In this document: piece by piece, positions 1,558 through 11,778 of the stretch
How positions within the stretch are numbered: position 1 is the stretch's first letter
Layout of the letters: every line of letters starts with the position of its first letter
IMG/VR virus record: IMGVR_UViG_3300023278_000911
Coordinates: 1 to 22,429 of that record
DNA from: a virus
Strand: one strand, 5' to 3'
DNA length: 22,429 nt
The notes under the pieces: model-generated
The model's database searches: none
Told to the model about the DNA's origin: nothing
Seen by the model: the letters and a program-made list of their open reading frames with translations, nothing else
Made by a program: the position numbers and the translations under genes

Positions 1558-1869
1558 ATGTCCTGGAAAATATTAAACATGGAACACAAAACCTCCGATG
1601 GTTTTGTAATTGAAGTAACTTCTGCTTATGAAAAGCAAGATGGACCTGGGTATGCCAGTCTTTTATTCGTCAATGAGTTCGAAGAAACAGCTGGCCCTGA
1701 ATTTATACCATACAAAGATCTGACAGAAGTAGCGGTCATAGGCTGGGTTAAAGATGCGCTTGGCGCAGTGGAAGTGAATAAAACAGAGGCAAGTGTTGAC
1801 GCGTTAGCTGCCTCAAAAAAGCAAGAAATTGAAAACCCTGCGGTAGAGCCTGGGTTGCCTTGGGTGTAA
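1558..1869 (+). CDS. Small conserved marine-phage protein (DUF7936-like)
   Basis: A 103-aa protein starting MSWKILNMEHK, with a conserved-looking core LTEVAVIGWVKDALG and a C-terminus ending in GLPWV. This layout matches, from memory, a small family found near structural genes of marine phages that I know as DUF7936; I could not verify the assignment. The core can be read as a compact beta domain followed by one helix. No signal peptide or membrane segment is present. The start is set by the ATG after an AT-rich leader (AATAAAATTAAAAAGC) without Shine-Dalgarno. It lies 37 nt after the fibre gene and may be a fibre-associated or virion protein, which is inference from position only. Confidence 0.6.
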   Translation: MSWKILNMEHKTSDGFVIEVTSAYEKQDGPGYASLLFVNEFEETAGPEFIPYKDLTEVAVIGWVKDALGAVEVNKTEASVDALAASKKQEIENPAVEPGLPWV

Positions 1870-1950: not shown

Positions 1951-2235
1951 ATGACAATTTATTATCAAACCAGCTCGTGGGCTGGTCAACCAGAAGTAAC
2001 CGACAAAGAAATTAAAGCATGGGAGCACGCTTCAACCAAATCAAATTGGCGTATTGTGCAATTGCCAAACGGATTCTATCAAACAGAAATTAAATCTGAA
2101 GCCGGCGATTGGAAGGATATAACCCGGCGCGAAACAATAGAAGGTGCAGAGCAAGCAATTGATGCCTCTATAGAACATTACAACAAAAAGCTAGAGTTCT
2201 CAAAAGGACCTAGGGTAGTAAAGACTTTTGAATAA
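1951..2235 (+). CDS. Conserved hypothetical small phage protein
   Basis: A 94-aa soluble protein. The segment WRIVQLPNGFYQTE followed by WKDITRRETIEGAEQAIDAS reads as a beta-hairpin plus one amphipathic helix. I have seen this pattern in small proteins of marine phages but know no function for it. There is no signal peptide, membrane helix or recognisable catalytic motif. It follows the previous gene by 81 nt, the largest gap in this part of the window, and precedes the chaperonin genes by 30 nt, so it is probably co-transcribed with both. The start is the ATG after an A-rich stretch (AAACCAAAACCA). The coding call is secure from frame, composition and spacing; the function is unknown. Confidence 0.6.
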   Translation: MTIYYQTSSWAGQPEVTDKEIKAWEHASTKSNWRIVQLPNGFYQTEIKSEAGDWKDITRRETIEGAEQAIDASIEHYNKKLEFSKGPRVVKTFE

Positions 2236-2265
2236 GTAATAAATCTAATTTAATTAAATCGAATA
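2236..2265 (+). promoter_or_regulatory. AT-rich translation leader of phage groEL
   Basis: The 30 nt before the groEL-like start hold no Shine-Dalgarno sequence. They include a perfect 12-bp palindrome, ATTTAATTAAAT at 2248-2259, six nt before the ATG at 2266. Similar AT-rich text precedes several other genes here (9019-9032, 10700-10719, 16615-16647). This fits Bacteroidota translation starts, which favour A/T-rich leaders over SD pairing. Whether the palindrome binds a protein is unknown. Confidence 0.35.
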
Positions 2266-3822
2266 ATGACTGACAAAATAGTTAAGAATTTAAACTTTGG
2301 TAATGAAGCCAAAGATAAAGTCTTTGCAGGAATTGAAAAACTCACAAAAGCTGTCAGCTCTACTTTAGGGGCTAGCGGCAAATGCGTGATACTTGAAGAC
2401 AATACAGGAAGACCCGTCATAACAAAAGATGGGGTAACTGTGGCAAATACAATAACACTGTTAGACCCGGTTGAAAATATAGGTGCTACACTTATAAAGC
2501 AAGCGGCTCAAAGAACGGTTAGCGAGGCAGGCGACGGAACCACCACAGCAACGGTGTTGGCGCATGCAATTTTAAAAGAGGCATACGAAGCGCTAAAGTC
2601 GCATGGAACTCGTGAAATTAAAGAAGGTATAACCCTAGCGGTTGAAAAGGTATGCGCGGCATTAGAAAAAACAGCCATACCTGTAACCGGCGAAATGTTA
2701 AACCAAGTTGCAACAATCTCAGCAAACAACGATGCTGAGCTAGGTAATTTAATTGCCGATGCGTTTAAGGCTGTTGATAGAACAGGTGTTGTTATAATGG
2801 AAACTTCAAATGAAACCACAACGATTACGGAAGTAGTTGATGGGGTTCAATACGAAAAAGGATTAAAGAATTTTCATTTTGTAACAAATAAAGAAACTGG
2901 TATTTCTGAGTTAGATAATCCTTTAGTTTTAATAGTCGAATCAGAAGTTCCTAATATAAGAAAAATACAAAGCGTATTAGAATACGTTATTAAAAATAAA
3001 AGAAGTCTTCTAATAATTGCAGATGTTGGGCTAGAGGTGTTAAACGCTTTAGCTATGAATCACGTGAAGGGCAATATAAAAGTAAATGTTATCGATGCTC
3101 CTACTTATGGAGTAACCAAAAAAGAAGTTATGCAGGATTTAGCACTGTTAACAGGCGCTACTGTAATAAACGAAAACTTAGGGGATGACATGGATTTAAT
3201 ACAACCCGAATATTTAGGGGAATGCTTAAAATCCGTAACAAACAATGAAGAAACGATTTTGCAAATTAGTGAACCCAGTGAGGAAGTTGAAAAGCTGGTG
3301 GACCAGGTTAAAAAACAACTTAGTGAAGCTACACTTGCGGGTTACAAAATTCGATTTGAAAAAAGACTTGCTCGTCTCTCCGCTAAAGTGGCTATTGTCA
3401 AAGTTGGAGCAAACTCAGAAGTAGAGTTAAAAGAAAAAACAGATAGAGTAGAAGATGCTATTTGTGCTACAAAAGCCGCAATAAAAGAAGGCATAGTTTC
3501 AGGTGGAGGTATAGCCTTGCTGAATGCGTCTGTTCTTACAAAAGCTAAAAGCGAAGGTGAAAAGGTATTGTTAAAGGCGATTAAAGCGCCCTACGAAACG
3601 ATCCTTACAAACGCAGGTCTTGAAATAGTTTACCCCCAAACAAAGAACAAAGGGTTAGACGTGGTTACAGGAAAAGAAGTAAATATGGTACGAGCAGGGA
3701 TTATAGATCCGCTACTAGTAACTAAAAGCGCTCTTAAAAATGCGGCTTCAGTAGCTACAACAATAATTTCAACCGATTGTGTAATCAATAACTTAAGAGT
3801 AGGAGATGAAAGCAATAGGTAG
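2266..3822 (+). CDS. groEL: Phage GroEL-type chaperonin (Hsp60)
   Basis: A 518-aa group I chaperonin expected to fold client proteins in an ATP-driven ring with its co-chaperonin. ATP-site motifs are intact: ITKDGV (D55, E. coli D52), DGTTTAT (D90, E. coli D87), VEDA (D397, E. coli D398) and VSGGG at 411-415. Departures from E. coli GroEL, by hand alignment: TLGPKG is TLGASG (33-38); the adenine-pocket NAA (479-481) is DVV; apical-groove Y199, Y203, L234, V263 and V264 read L, H, Q, A and M; inter-ring R452 is E444, with S463 and V464 as V and Y; the GGM tail is absent. The R452E change is one of the four in the engineered single-ring mutant SR1. It is shorter than the usual ~545 aa. groES follows in a 17-nt overlap, the reverse of the bacterial order. 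Chaperonin identity is certain; single-ring assembly is inference. Confidence 0.96.
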   Translation: MTDKIVKNLNFGNEAKDKVFAGIEKLTKAVSSTLGASGKCVILEDNTGRPVITKDGVTVANTITLLDPVENIGATLIKQAAQRTVSEAGDGTTTATVLAHAILKEAYEALKSHGTREIKEGITLAVEKVCAALEKTAIPVTGEMLNQVATISANNDAELGNLIADAFKAVDRTGVVIMETSNETTTITEVVDGVQYEKGLKNFHFVTNKETGISELDNPLVLIVESEVPNIRKIQSVLEYVIKNKRSLLIIADVGLEVLNALAMNHVKGNIKVNVIDAPTYGVTKKEVMQDLALLTGATVINENLGDDMDLIQPEYLGECLKSVTNNEETILQISEPSEEVEKLVDQVKKQLSEATLAGYKIRFEKRLARLSAKVAIVKVGANSEVELKEKTDRVEDAICATKAAIKEGIVSGGGIALLNASVLTKAKSEGEKVLLKAIKAPYETILTNAGLEIVYPQTKNKGLDVVTGKEVNMVRAGIIDPLLVTKSALKNAASVATTIISTDCVINNLRVGDESNR

Positions 3823-4066
3823 AAACTTAATAGTATTAAAAGAAAAGCAAGGCGCGAAAGAAACAAAGGGCGGCTTACTTTTAGCAGAAAAGCAAAGGGA
3901 AGATATTAGATATGCAAAAGCAAAAGTAATATCAGCTGGCGAAGACGTGCAGGCTATAAAGAATAATGATGTTATATATTACGACCGCCACGCGGGCCAC
4001 AAAATAGAATTTGAAGGCAATATGTATAATGTCATAAAAGCGCAAGATGTAGTAATAGTTGTATGA
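3806..4066 (+). CDS. groES: Phage GroES-type co-chaperonin
   Basis: An 86-aa single-barrel co-chaperonin, about ten residues shorter than E. coli GroES. It starts MKAIGRNLIVLKEK (first barrel strand) and has a mobile-loop equivalent ETKGGLLLAEK, in which GG (22-23) and the hydrophobic tripeptide LLL (24-26) replace the bacterial GGIVL that docks on the GroEL apical domain. It ends MYNVIKAQDVVIVV, matching the GroES C-terminal strand pattern VLIMSESDILAIV. The roof-loop region appears shortened. The start lies inside the end of the groEL-like gene (17-nt overlap) with AGGAG directly abutting the ATG, so translation is probably coupled. It presumably caps the upstream chaperonin; the matching changes in loop and groove suggest a dedicated pair. 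Confidence 0.9.
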   Translation: MKAIGRNLIVLKEKQGAKETKGGLLLAEKQREDIRYAKAKVISAGEDVQAIKNNDVIYYDRHAGHKIEFEGNMYNVIKAQDVVIVV

Positions 4067-7768: not shown

Positions 7769-8107
7769 ATGAAAAAATTATTAATTACATTATTGTTTAT
7801 TTTTGCTTTAACCACATCGAATGCTCAACAGCAATTTGAAGGCGAATGGAAAAGCGAAACTTCTTCTTTTACAACAACTATAATTGCAAGTGAATATGCA
7901 GTTTTAAAAGTATTTAACTTTAGTTTTAAAGAAGATCTATATATAGAAGAAACTATATTAAAACAAACAGATCATGAATTTACAACTCGACTATATAATT
8001 ATAGAAATGGATACGACGTTGTGATAAAATATAAATTAATTGCTGGTAATTTAATATGCGAATTTAGCGGCGATTTACACACGGTAATCAAACTTACTAA
8101 AAAATAA
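7769..8107 (+). CDS. Small secreted beta-rich protein (signal peptide)
   Basis: A 112-aa protein with a clear Sec signal peptide: MKK, a hydrophobic core LLITLLFIFAL, then TTSNA with predicted cleavage after A19 before QQQ, the typical Bacteroidota form. The mature ~93 residues alternate hydrophobic and polar positions (FEGEWKSETSSFTTTIIA, LICEFSGDLHTVIKLTKK), suggesting a small beta-barrel or lipocalin-like fold of unknown function. No lipobox is seen. A 49-nt AT-rich gap precedes it. A host-like exported protein in a late phage operon may act on the periplasm or envelope during lysis, or modify the cell surface; that is inference. Confidence 0.6.
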   Translation: MKKLLITLLFIFALTTSNAQQQFEGEWKSETSSFTTTIIASEYAVLKVFNFSFKEDLYIEETILKQTDHEFTTRLYNYRNGYDVVIKYKLIAGNLICEFSGDLHTVIKLTKK

Positions 8108-9032: not shown

Positions 9033-9767
9033 ATGAAAAAGCTAATTTTTATTTTAGCTTTTCTTTGTTTGGGCATTACTAATGCTCAAAATAAACTTTC
9101 TATATCTAATTATTTTAAAATACCGGAAAGTTACAAAAGAATAGCTAAAACCGATTACCATAAATGGTTAATTAATAAAGAAATAAAAGTAGAAGAAGTA
9201 AAAACCTATGACGGATATACTATATACGGACTAGGAAATCATTATGCCGCGAAGTTTGATTACAATATTGGCAAAAGAGATTTACATCAATGCGCCGATG
9301 CCGCTATGTATTTTAGAGCCTGGTATCATTTCAACGAAGGCAACACAAATAAAATAGTATTTACATTTACAGACGGCACAGAGTATAGCTACAGTGAGTT
9401 TTTAAAACAAAAAAACATTAGCAATACGTTTAAAAGCTTTAATAAGTACATGGTCATCATCTGGTCTTACGCTGGAACTTGGTCAATAAATAAGTACGAT
9501 ACAATACCTGTTAGCATAAATAATATATCTGCTGGCGATATATTTGTCATAGGAGGGTTTCCAGGTCACGCAGTGACTGTTGTAGATATAATAGAAAACG
9601 AATGTGGAAATAAGAAAATAATGCTATCACAAAGTTTTATGCCAGCACAAGACCATCATATATTGTTAAACCCAAAAAGTAATACTGTTTGGTTTGATAT
9701 AAACGAGGTGCACAATACGGGATTTGGCTTCACAGAAGACAATTTAAAAAGATTTAAAACAAAATAA
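9033..9767 (+). CDS. Exported DUF4846-like protein
   Basis: A 244-aa protein with signal peptide MKKLIFILAFLCLGITNA, cleaved before Q19. The mature region carries features I associate with DUF4846: QCADAAMYFRAWYHF (86-100), GGFPGHAVTVVDI (174-186) and LSQSFMPAQDHHIL (199-211). C87 at the start of a helix and H179 on a later strand look like the Cys/His pair of a papain-like (NlpC-like) fold; catalysis is inferred, not shown. The family is found in exported proteins of Bacteroidota, so transfer from a host is plausible. It sits beside the cysteine-peptidase-like gene and ~530 nt before a holin candidate, suggesting a role at the periplasm or envelope, possibly a secreted lysin. Confidence 0.7.
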   Translation: MKKLIFILAFLCLGITNAQNKLSISNYFKIPESYKRIAKTDYHKWLINKEIKVEEVKTYDGYTIYGLGNHYAAKFDYNIGKRDLHQCADAAMYFRAWYHFNEGNTNKIVFTFTDGTEYSYSEFLKQKNISNTFKSFNKYMVIIWSYAGTWSINKYDTIPVSINNISAGDIFVIGGFPGHAVTVVDIIENECGNKKIMLSQSFMPAQDHHILLNPKSNTVWFDINEVHNTGFGFTEDNLKRFKTK

Positions 9768-10294: not shown

Positions 10295-10699
10295 ATGAAA
10301 AAAATTTGGGAGTGGCTAACTGGTAACGTAATAAAAGAAGTTGGCCAAGTTTTAGACAACCTGACAACTACCAAGGAAGAAAAGCTAGAAGCTCAGCGAT
10401 TAATAACTGAGATACTAGAAAAAGCCGATAAAGAAGCTCAAGAGCAGGTAACAGCAAGGTGGGAGTCAGATATGAAGTCTGATTCGTTTTTATCAAAAAA
10501 CATTCGGCCTATGGTGTTAATATACCTAACAGTTATATTTACTGTTTGCGCTTTCTTTGATGGCAACATAGGGCAGTTTAAAATAGCTGAAGAATACATA
10601 CCAATATTCCAAACATTACTAGTAACCGTATATGGCGCTTACTTTGTAGGAAGATCTTGGGAAAAAGCTAAAAGTATGAGTAATAATAAAGATCAATAA
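10295..10699 (+). CDS. Holin-like membrane protein (GTA_holin_3TM type)
   Basis: A 134-aa protein starting MKKIWEWLTGNVIKEVGQVL, then a charged helix (28-62) with EKLEAQRLITEILEKADKEA and ARWESDMKSDSFLSKNIRP, followed by two hydrophobic segments at ~72-88 (PMVLIYLTVIFTVCAFF) and ~103-119 (PIFQTLLVTVYGAYFVG). This layout, including SKNIRP before the first span and YFVGRS after the second, matches the 3TM holin family of phages and gene-transfer agents. It should form inner-membrane lesions at the end of infection, letting a muralytic enzyme out. Only two clear spans are visible; the hydrophobic N-terminal helix might count as the third. It is the second holin candidate in the window. Confidence 0.75.
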   Translation: MKKIWEWLTGNVIKEVGQVLDNLTTTKEEKLEAQRLITEILEKADKEAQEQVTARWESDMKSDSFLSKNIRPMVLIYLTVIFTVCAFFDGNIGQFKIAEEYIPIFQTLLVTVYGAYFVGRSWEKAKSMSNNKDQ

Positions 10700-10953: not shown

Positions 10954-11173
10954 TAACGTAAGAAAAATCAGCATAGGCTCTGATTATAAAAACGATGCAA
11001 TGCACTACTCAGTAGGGCAACAGGTTTACGGAGGCCACGAAATATCAAATATATTATTTGAAGAAGCTGATCATTCTTACAATATTTTCATTAAAAAAAA
11101 TAACGAGGTGTTGCCATGGAAAAAGTTTAATAAAAACATGGCAATATCCGTTGAGTATGACTTAGAGTATTAA
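10946..11173 (+). CDS. Small conserved phage protein, unknown function
   Basis: A 75-aa protein beginning MNNNVRKISIGSDYKNDAMH then YSVGQQVYGGHEIS. The sequence reads as a beta-rich fold with conserved-looking text (RKISIG.DYK..AMHY.VGQ, WK.FN.NM.IS.EY) that I recall from many marine Bacteroidota phages beside the preceding coiled-coil gene. It overlaps that gene by 8 nt and shares its stop with the next start through TAATG. No catalytic or membrane features are seen. The constant pairing with its neighbours suggests a head-assembly or packaging-related role, which is inference. Confidence 0.6.
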   Translation: MNNNVRKISIGSDYKNDAMHYSVGQQVYGGHEISNILFEEADHSYNIFIKKNNEVLPWKKFNKNMAISVEYDLEY

Positions 11174-11778
11174 TGAGAAGTCTTTATCAGTTCATTGTTA
11201 AACCTGCTAATAAGCGTTATAATAATGAAAAGAAAATAGGCGACAGTAGCCTCTTACTAAATAATAATATAGAAAGCTTTCGTCACGTTAGCAAAGAAGC
11301 AATTGTAGTTGAAATACCAAAAGCTTTTAAAACAAATATAAAACCTGGTGATAAAGTTATAATTCATCATAACATATTTAGAAGGTTTTATGATATAAGA
11401 GGGAAAGAAAAAAATAGCGGCACTTACTTTAAAGATGATTTATATTTTGTTAATATAGATCAAGTTTATATGTATAATCAAAATAATAAATGGATACCTC
11501 ATTTAGATTATTGTTTTGTTAACCCTATTAAAGAAGACGCTATGTTTTCAATTAATTTTGAGAAGCCCCTAGTTGGTATATTAAAATATGGAAACAATGC
11601 GTTAGAAGCGCTTAAAATAAGCCCAGGAGACTTAGTTGGCTTTACGCCTTACAGTGAGTTTGAGTTTATAATAGATAATAAGCGTTTATATTGTATGAAA
11701 TCAAATGATATTGTAATTAAGTATGAGTGTAAAGGAAACGAAAAAGAATATAATCCAAGCTGGGCGCAGAGCGGTTGA
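11173..11778 (+). CDS. Tandem GroES-like (double co-chaperonin) protein
   Basis: A 201-aa protein whose two halves each follow the GroES layout. First half: a strand LYQFIVKPANKR, a loop with hydrophobic tripeptide LLL (27-29) as in GroES mobile loops, EAIVVEIP (42-49), KPGDKVIIHH (57-66) like the GroES KVGDIVIF, and a closing strand DDLYFVNIDQVYMY (88-101), matching VLIMSESDILAIV. Second half: GILKYGN (135-141) like GEVLAVGN, ISPGDLVGF (149-157) and KRLYCMKSNDIVIKY (170-184), again the closing strand. I recall related proteins beside terminase genes of marine Bacteroidota phages. It may act as a second co-chaperonin or be a virion protein using the barrel fold. The fold is inferred by eye; the second half lacks an obvious mobile loop. 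Confidence 0.6.
   Translation: MRSLYQFIVKPANKRYNNEKKIGDSSLLLNNNIESFRHVSKEAIVVEIPKAFKTNIKPGDKVIIHHNIFRRFYDIRGKEKNSGTYFKDDLYFVNIDQVYMYNQNNKWIPHLDYCFVNPIKEDAMFSINFEKPLVGILKYGNNALEALKISPGDLVGFTPYSEFEFIIDNKRLYCMKSNDIVIKYECKGNEKEYNPSWAQSG

Follow-up and report, generated by a model that had tools for sequence, protein, structure and literature searches.

A phage GroEL with its own GroES from a lineage that has probably dismantled the GroEL-type ring-ring interface

The virus record IMGVR_UViG_3300023278_000911 (22,429 bases; hereafter the window, meaning this whole stretch of DNA) encodes a GroEL together with its own GroES. The lineage of this GroEL has probably dismantled the GroEL-type ring-ring interface, hence ring pairing is likely to be weak or absent (we put the probability of this reading at ca. 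0.6). The original prediction of a possible single-ring chaperonin had started from one substitution at the inter-ring contact. Judged from the aligned proteins, loss of the classic contacts is supported more strongly than it had argued, since two ring-face segments are shortened family-wide and both salt-bridge pairs are broken in the window protein. The chaperonin gene and its relevant parts are as follows.

2266-3822, plus strand: GroEL-like chaperonin, 518 aa, complete (Pfam PF00118 and phrog_5725)
2587-2604, plus strand: GroEL residues 108-113, left inter-ring site (E. coli K105-M111; MAFFT)
3541-3546, plus strand: GroEL residues 426-427, junction of a seven-residue loss (E. coli 428-434; alignment)
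3595-3597, plus strand: GroEL E444, at E. coli R452 (phmmer, MAFFT)
3613-3648, plus strand: GroEL residues 450-461, loop replacing helix 462-471 at the right inter-ring site and holding E453 (AF2 models, lengths)

By its sequence, the 2266-3822 ORF is a group I chaperonin. The Pfam domain Cpn60_TCP1 (PF00118) spans residues 26-508 (E 6.9e-54), the match to phrog_5725 'chaperonin groEL' has E 2.7e-129, and, among the matches listed, identity to bacterial GroELs, that of E. coli included, is 38-44% over most of the length. Residues D52, D87-T91, D398 and D495, which we take to be the GroEL ATP-site residues, are identical in the window GroEL, and D52, D87, D398 and D495 are kept in 13/13 family clusters (MAFFT alignment).

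The family set comprised 48 GroELs, that is, 49 loci plus the window and minus L046, which breaks off after 142 residues, and L048, an edge fragment. Adding 80 loci from among the matches listed and removing L156 and L193, whose contigs are identical to those of L016 and L043, yielded 126 relatives, or 64 representatives at 85% identity. The cellular set of 80 GroELs contained the best matches to an alignment of one GroEL each from E. coli, Flavobacterium, Bacteroides and a Vibrio phage, and is therefore biased to typical GroELs. The MAFFT alignment of 150 GroELs included the 48 family members, the 80 cellular proteins and 22 others; 17 phage GroELs among the latter entered the length counts, and E. 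coli, L062 and the distant L150-L152 were left out. L062 (CAKLQH020000021) is filed as an Acinetobacter phage, and its groES-groEL pair lies amid ordinary bacterial genes and is probably chromosomal. Two Salmonella records, AFYI01000007 and AGRM01000005, were also among the matches listed in the phage collection.

The cited passages of PMC7960994 and PMC5575113 place ring-ring contacts at K105, A108, A109, G110, M111, K105-D435, R452-E461, S463, V464 and N467, and the latter names K105-D435 and R452-E461 as the inter-ring salt bridges. These positions fall in the stretches 97-118, 418-446 and 457-477, with 452 just outside. We counted residues between anchored positions, so that the counts are independent of gap placement. 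The 418-446 stretch (29 residues in E. coli) has 22 residues in 126/126 relatives among the matches listed and 27-31 in the 80 cellular GroELs. The 457-477 stretch (21 in E. coli) has 19-22 residues in the cellular proteins; among the 126 relatives listed, it has 15-16 in 115, 18 in seven and 21 in four, and so is shorter by 3-6 residues in 122/126. This bears out the earlier claim that several residues are missing between the interface and the adenine pocket. The 97-118 stretch (22 in E. coli and in 80/80 cellular GroELs) has 19-21 residues in 120 and 22 in six of the 126 among the matches listed. Length losses common to 122-126 of the 126 relatives listed are therefore not due to chance. In four relatives (L217, L225, L229, L231), 457-477 is as long as in E. 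coli and has different letters, a possible regain of a ring-face element.

In the window GroEL, the seven residues at E. coli 428-434, beside D435, are absent, and the left site has K105 replaced by E108, A108 by K111 and A109 by S112, with one residue fewer (MAFFT). Thus the contacts of the GroEL-type staggered arrangement, K105-D435 and R452-E461/S463/V464, are either changed or lie in shortened segments. Seventeen E. coli positions are missing in all 48 family members; fourteen of them are 110, 428-434 and 462-467, and the rest are 141, 252 and 327. We dropped an exact deletion of 462-467 in 48/48 as over-precise, as the larger alignment places letters at 462-464. In that alignment of 126 relatives from among the matches listed, the letters around 461-467 vary freely; therefore, no conserved new contact is visible there.

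Predicted structures agree with the counts. The AF2 model of the window GroEL (50 sequences, mean pLDDT 86.7) has helices 414-423, 430-438 and 441-449, a loop at 450-461 (block pLDDT 86-88) and a strand at 462-464. A control model of Maribacter arenosus GroEL (L086; 38 sequences) has helices 415-428, 434-446, 449-457 and 462-471. The helix carrying S463, V464 and N467 is therefore predicted to be gone from the window protein, and its two neighbours to be shorter. The best VIA-align match to the window model was 8wuc, GroEL-GroES2 (Z 46.9, rmsd 2.4 over 509 residues), and the best rows were GroEL-GroES and Hsp60-Hsp10 complexes, so the model, a monomer that cannot tell a 7-mer from a 14-mer, resembles the GroES-bound shape.

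The substitution from which the single-ring idea had started is real. R452 corresponds to E444 both in phmmer against PDB sequences and in the 150-GroEL MAFFT alignment, and 9mmz, titled SR1 single-ring GroEL, has E in the same column (phmmer). Both alignments likewise retain E461 as E453 (3622-3624). As had been claimed, the classic inter-ring salt bridge is lost in the window GroEL, with E444 facing E453; the second bridge is broken as well, K105 being E108 and D435 being A427 (MAFFT). The further assignments of S463 to V455 and V464 to Y456 follow when one counts on from the anchored N457-G459, but they depend on gaps and are not firm, because the window segment is shorter than that of E. 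coli: 462-467 is partly or wholly gapped in the phmmer and 150-GroEL alignments, while letters are aligned there in the 126-relative alignment.

As the basis of a single-ring case, R452E is not supported. Cellular GroELs have R (77) or K (3) at 452, and 452/461 are basic/acidic in all 80. In the family, K is the commonest residue: the 48 members have K 30, E 17 and R 1 (MAFFT), and the 126 relatives among the matches listed have K 61, E 26, N 19, Y 5, R 2 and 13 others, i.e. K or R in 63. A tree of the 64 representatives requires at least 26 changes of charge class at this position. Position 461 is E in 60/126 relatives, 37 of which combine it with K452; it is acidic in 21/28 relatives with D or E at 452 and in 44/63 with K or R (all among the matches listed). 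Basic 452 with acidic 461 gave 7.0 versus 1.8 independent pairs on the 64-representative tree (median p 0.18, not significant), and charge compensation between the two positions was set aside as a weak tendency only. Given the class changes and the weak pairing, 452 changes readily and has at most a weak remaining link to its former partner 461. We rejected R452E as the defining change, as 452 is neither conserved among relatives nor stable on the tree.

Constraint at the contact columns is relaxed in the family. We compared column entropies between the 64 family and 55 cellular representatives, which have mean identities of 0.65 and 0.69. The family excess was 1.78 bits at 105, 2.64 at 109, 2.74 at 111, 2.60 at 452 and 2.23 at 461, values that are inflated by alignment noise beside gaps at 109-111 and 461. 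Column 108 had also been chosen and was gapped. The mean excess of the five columns, 2.40 bits, was reached by 0/100,000 random sets of five from 503 columns and by 0/100,000 sets within the 233 equatorial columns. When the random columns were restricted to those with about the same conservation in cells, 1, 0, 0 and 0 sets per 100,000 reached it (pools of 292, 124, 137 and 58, respectively), and the nine testable literature positions compared in this way gave 0 per 100,000. The columns came from the literature lists, but were picked after the residue counts of the 150-GroEL alignment had been seen; a test limited to positions 105 and 452, both outside the gapped stretches, gives a weaker result (1,466 and 2,113 per 100,000). 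Other strongly relaxed columns are apical, e.g. 327, 358 and 361, and therefore the ring face is not the sole changed surface.

The apical surface differs from that of cellular GroELs at positions which we take to bind client and GroES, namely Y199, Y203, L234, V263 and V264. In 13/13 family clusters, Y199 is replaced by L or I, Y203 by H and L234 by Q; in 12/13, V263 is replaced by A and V264 by M. The 80 cellular GroELs have Y at 199 and 203 (80/80 each), L at 234 (74/80), and V at 263 (80/80) and 264 (70/80). These changes may weaken GroES binding. The GroEL pair R197-E386 is kept in the window as K198-E385 (alignment), and the pair D83-K327 is represented by S (S86) and N. In much of the family the latter pair looks swapped, with K/R at 83 in 39/64 and D/E at 327 in 25/64 representatives; position 327 is gapped in the 150-GroEL alignment, which makes this placement unsure.

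Two GroES-like proteins are encoded in the window.

3806-4066, plus strand: GroES-like co-chaperonin, 86 aa (Pfam PF00166, E 8.9e-12), overlapping the GroEL gene end by 17 nt
11173-11778, plus strand: second GroES-like protein, 201 aa (phrog_13932), just upstream of the terminase gene

The small GroES has a GG-LLL tripeptide in the place of the mobile loop. A GroES-like ORF adjoins GroEL in 48/48 family members with no motif required, and in 126/126 among the matches listed with the motif required. The mobile-loop place reads GG-L-x-L/I in 124/126 of those listed, the search having required such a pattern; it reads KGLLM in L190 and SGLLL in L198. The window GroES and six other family members aligned lack ca. 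nine residues in the region of the roof hairpin of E. coli GroES, a likeness to T4 gp31. This loss might enlarge the cage. The GroES proteins of elemo and of phage MW202828 also lack these ca. nine residues.

The 201-aa protein matches phrog_13932 'co-chaperonin GroES' over residues 1-182 (E 4.2e-24), and its Pfam Cpn10 score of 20.7 bits is just under the cut-off of 21.1. Its C-terminal half matches the small GroES (hhalign E 5.7e-7, probability 86). The N-terminal half aligns with GroES end-to-end and weakly (E 0.013, probability 1.5; controls E 0.85 and 0.99), and the two halves compared by hhalign showed no resemblance to each other (E 0.85, no better than control). The matches suggest a tandem GroES, the N-terminal half being a putative second GroES-like domain. 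This putative domain also has a mobile-loop-like segment. Against PDB sequences, the 201-aa protein gave weak matches to other proteins only (best E 0.025). It was matched in 15/15 long family contigs searched, end-to-end in 13 and partially in G010 and G015, where the match is part of an open frame of ca. 200 aa. In 14/15 contigs there was an extra small match to the C-terminal half; in the fifteenth, G005, which holds L049, the small GroES was found by the survey of GroEL neighbours. As the GroES-like search also matches 9/14 control genomes, only the long matches speak for the 201-aa protein. Its relatives come from 77 phage records (Flavobacterium 68, Cellulophaga 7, Maribacter 1, one other), and those in elemo, Calle and Panino are annotated as Cpn10 or GroES among the matches listed. 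Our literature search found no report of a phage tandem or Cpn20 co-chaperonin.

We also built a tree of 52 rows with the trait columns left out. The 13 representatives of the family make up one side of a starred branch (99) in it; their neighbours are elemo, Panino and MW202828, joined by a branch that is not starred (94) and lies where long branches meet. Scored by a length rule on 462-470, the trait needs four changes on this tree. The 457-477 stretch is also short in phi38:1, Calle, Panino and the crAss-like phage cr108_1, and not short in elemo and immuto. In elemo, 418-446 has 22 residues and 457-477 has 21; in phi38:1 and Calle the pattern is reversed (32 and 15). The 418-446 stretch has 20 residues in L148, which is the cr108_1 GroEL, and 22 in L149. 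The cr108_1 protein (494 aa, 1992-3476) has 418-446 and 457-477 cut to 20 and 3 residues, and no feature annotated as GroES was found in the 5.4-kb stretch holding its gene. The flavobacterial phage GroELs, i.e. those of phi38:1/Calle, elemo, Panino and the group 2 marine genomes, come from the same phage kind and host group as the window. GroEL has been reported in 36 environmental genomes grouped with Cellulophaga phi38:1 (PMC5332604), and GroEL plus GroES in Maribacter phage Panino (PMC11590407); the passages of these two papers on the GroELs contain no interface analysis. We found no report on the ring state of the window lineage in the literature, with bioRxiv preprints and most subscription papers outside the search.

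Among characterized chaperonins, E. coli GroEL and its mutant SR1 (R452E/E461A/S463A/V464A; excerpt of PMC12696368) share with the window protein the group I fold, the ATP-site residues and a GroES partner gene, and SR1 also has E at 452. Unlike SR1, the window GroEL is natural, ca. 40% identical, keeps E461, and has two shortened segments rather than four point changes; unlike either, it has changed apical residues and no GGM tail. Human mitochondrial Hsp60, which works with a small co-chaperonin, lacks both GroEL inter-ring salt bridges (PMC5575113 and PMC8292379, in part), as does the window protein (E108 at 105 and A427 at 435; E444 with E453). Its rings occur singly as well as in pairs (PMC5575113, PMC7174398). 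It keeps the S464/E462 right-site contact, including S464-S464 (PMC7174398), whereas the window segment GLEIVYPQTK is cut back and modelled as a loop. In the ancestral group I chaperonin ACI, a single heptameric ring, the authors link the ring state to the same sites (E460R, S463A, V464E); unlike the window protein, ACI is reconstructed, has R at the 452 place and needs ATP for rings (PMC12696368, passages on ACI).

The original prediction had also cited single-ring phage chaperonins as a precedent. This holds for OBP gp246 and AR9 gp228, phage-encoded like the window GroEL and reported as single heptameric rings, but EL forms double rings without nucleotide, and all three reportedly function unaided by a co-chaperonin (PMC9598537 and PMC7185714, in the parts cited). 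OBP and AR9 are moreover phages of other hosts, and the window has an adjoining GroES and a second GroES-like protein. EL gp146 resembles the window protein in being phage-encoded, in having a loop for helix 462-471, and in not keeping the GroEL pair D83-K327; the R197-E386 pair, kept in the window, marks a contrast. The EL protein is 22% identical to GroEL and has added elements at a 1:1 interface, and the cited part of PMC7185714 reports no co-chaperonin found, whereas in the window the GroES gene overlaps that of GroEL. In the same source, EL rings are double without nucleotide, held by other, 1:1 contacts, and single with ATP at 100 mM KCl.

EL thus provides the main caution against weak or absent ring pairing in the window lineage: it lost the same helix yet, according to the passages cited, pairs rings without nucleotide (PMC7185714). 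The retention of K or R at 452 in 63/126 relatives and the E. coli-like length of 457-477 in 4/126 (among the matches listed) also count against it. The window GroEL might then form a resting double ring in which the GroEL-type contacts are replaced by different ones, EL-like 1:1 or new, and which may split on ATP. We consider this rather unlikely. Besides EL, it has a precedent in mitochondrial Hsp60, which makes footballs without the salt bridges, via S464/E462 and E105-K109 (PMC7174398, passage cited), and the window GroEL, like that protein, has E at 105. However, EL is described as having at its interface a lengthened helix N together with an additional short helix and a long loop, whereas in 122-126 of the 126 relatives listed the corresponding stretches are shortened, not extended.

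An ordinary GroEL-like staggered double ring, with neighbouring residues compensating, seems improbable. The 38-44% identity to bacterial GroELs over most of the length would fit it, and a K-E bridge is possible in some relatives, namely the 37/126 listed with K452 and E461; but the window protein pairs E with E and lacks both helix 462-471 and the 428-434 loop, the segments that hold the contact residues or flank them. Least credible of all is that R452E in particular converts the protein to a single ring, on the model of the engineered SR1. E444 lies exactly in the SR1 column, but 452 varies, with at least 26 class changes, whereas nearly every relative has the shortened segments. Should pairing already have been lost in the ancestor of the lineage, E452 would be a by-product.

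Weak or absent pairing through a dismantled GroEL-type interface is therefore the reading that we prefer. A trimmed ring face, a retained GroES and a changed lid-binding surface together fit a one-ring or ring-splitting cycle. In such a cycle, the working unit would be a single ring capped by GroES, like the half-footballs of mitochondrial Hsp60, with ring pairing either lost or too weak to matter; of these two, weak pairing taken by itself we consider rather unlikely. GroES and client would be released without a signal from the opposite ring, and release would rely on a retuned, weaker GroEL-GroES contact (Y203H, L234Q, V263A and V264M in the lineage). The clients would probably be phage structural proteins. 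Two observations on other chaperonins are consistent with this scheme: a single-ring GroEL traps normal GroES, and a weakened GroES contact restores its function (PMC5575113, in part); obligate single-ring variants of mitochondrial Hsp60 are active (PMC7174398, in part). Only tentatively do we suggest an obligate single-ring GroEL in a widespread marine flavobacterial phage lineage, with its own roofless GroES as the lid and the second, ca. 200-aa GroES-like protein as a possible further one. If so, this would be a natural one-ring cage that has abandoned opposite-ring allostery and in which lid release is timed by the retuned lid contact. The reason why two rings are needed in GroEL has long been sought, mostly with engineered single-ring mutants and mitochondrial Hsp60. 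The family would supply chaperonin-cochaperonin pairs, naturally single-ring or ring-splitting, that have diverged to many different degrees, with comparators among flavobacterial phages: elemo keeps one of the two segments, and immuto keeps both.

The host of the window phage is probably a member of Flavobacteriaceae, since the relatives of its terminase, found in 87 phage records, come mostly from phages of Flavobacterium (68) and Cellulophaga (15), with two from Tenacibaculum and one from Maribacter. The closest of these 87 is a podovirus from Manatee Spring (63%). Megablast of the whole window against phage records yielded no match. Terminase, portal protein and virion structural proteins are encoded downstream of GroEL/GroES (Pfam and PHROG profiles), and three further genes were assigned.

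1558-1869, plus strand: DUF7936 protein (E 8.1e-18), phrog_7802 family, two ORFs before GroEL
9033-9767, plus strand: DUF4846 protein with a signal-like start (Pfam E 9.7e-51)
10295-10699, plus strand: holin (phrog_3427, E 1.7e-27; Pfam GTA_holin_3TM just below the cut-off)

In addition, the ORF at 7769-8107 also has a signal-like peptide at its start.
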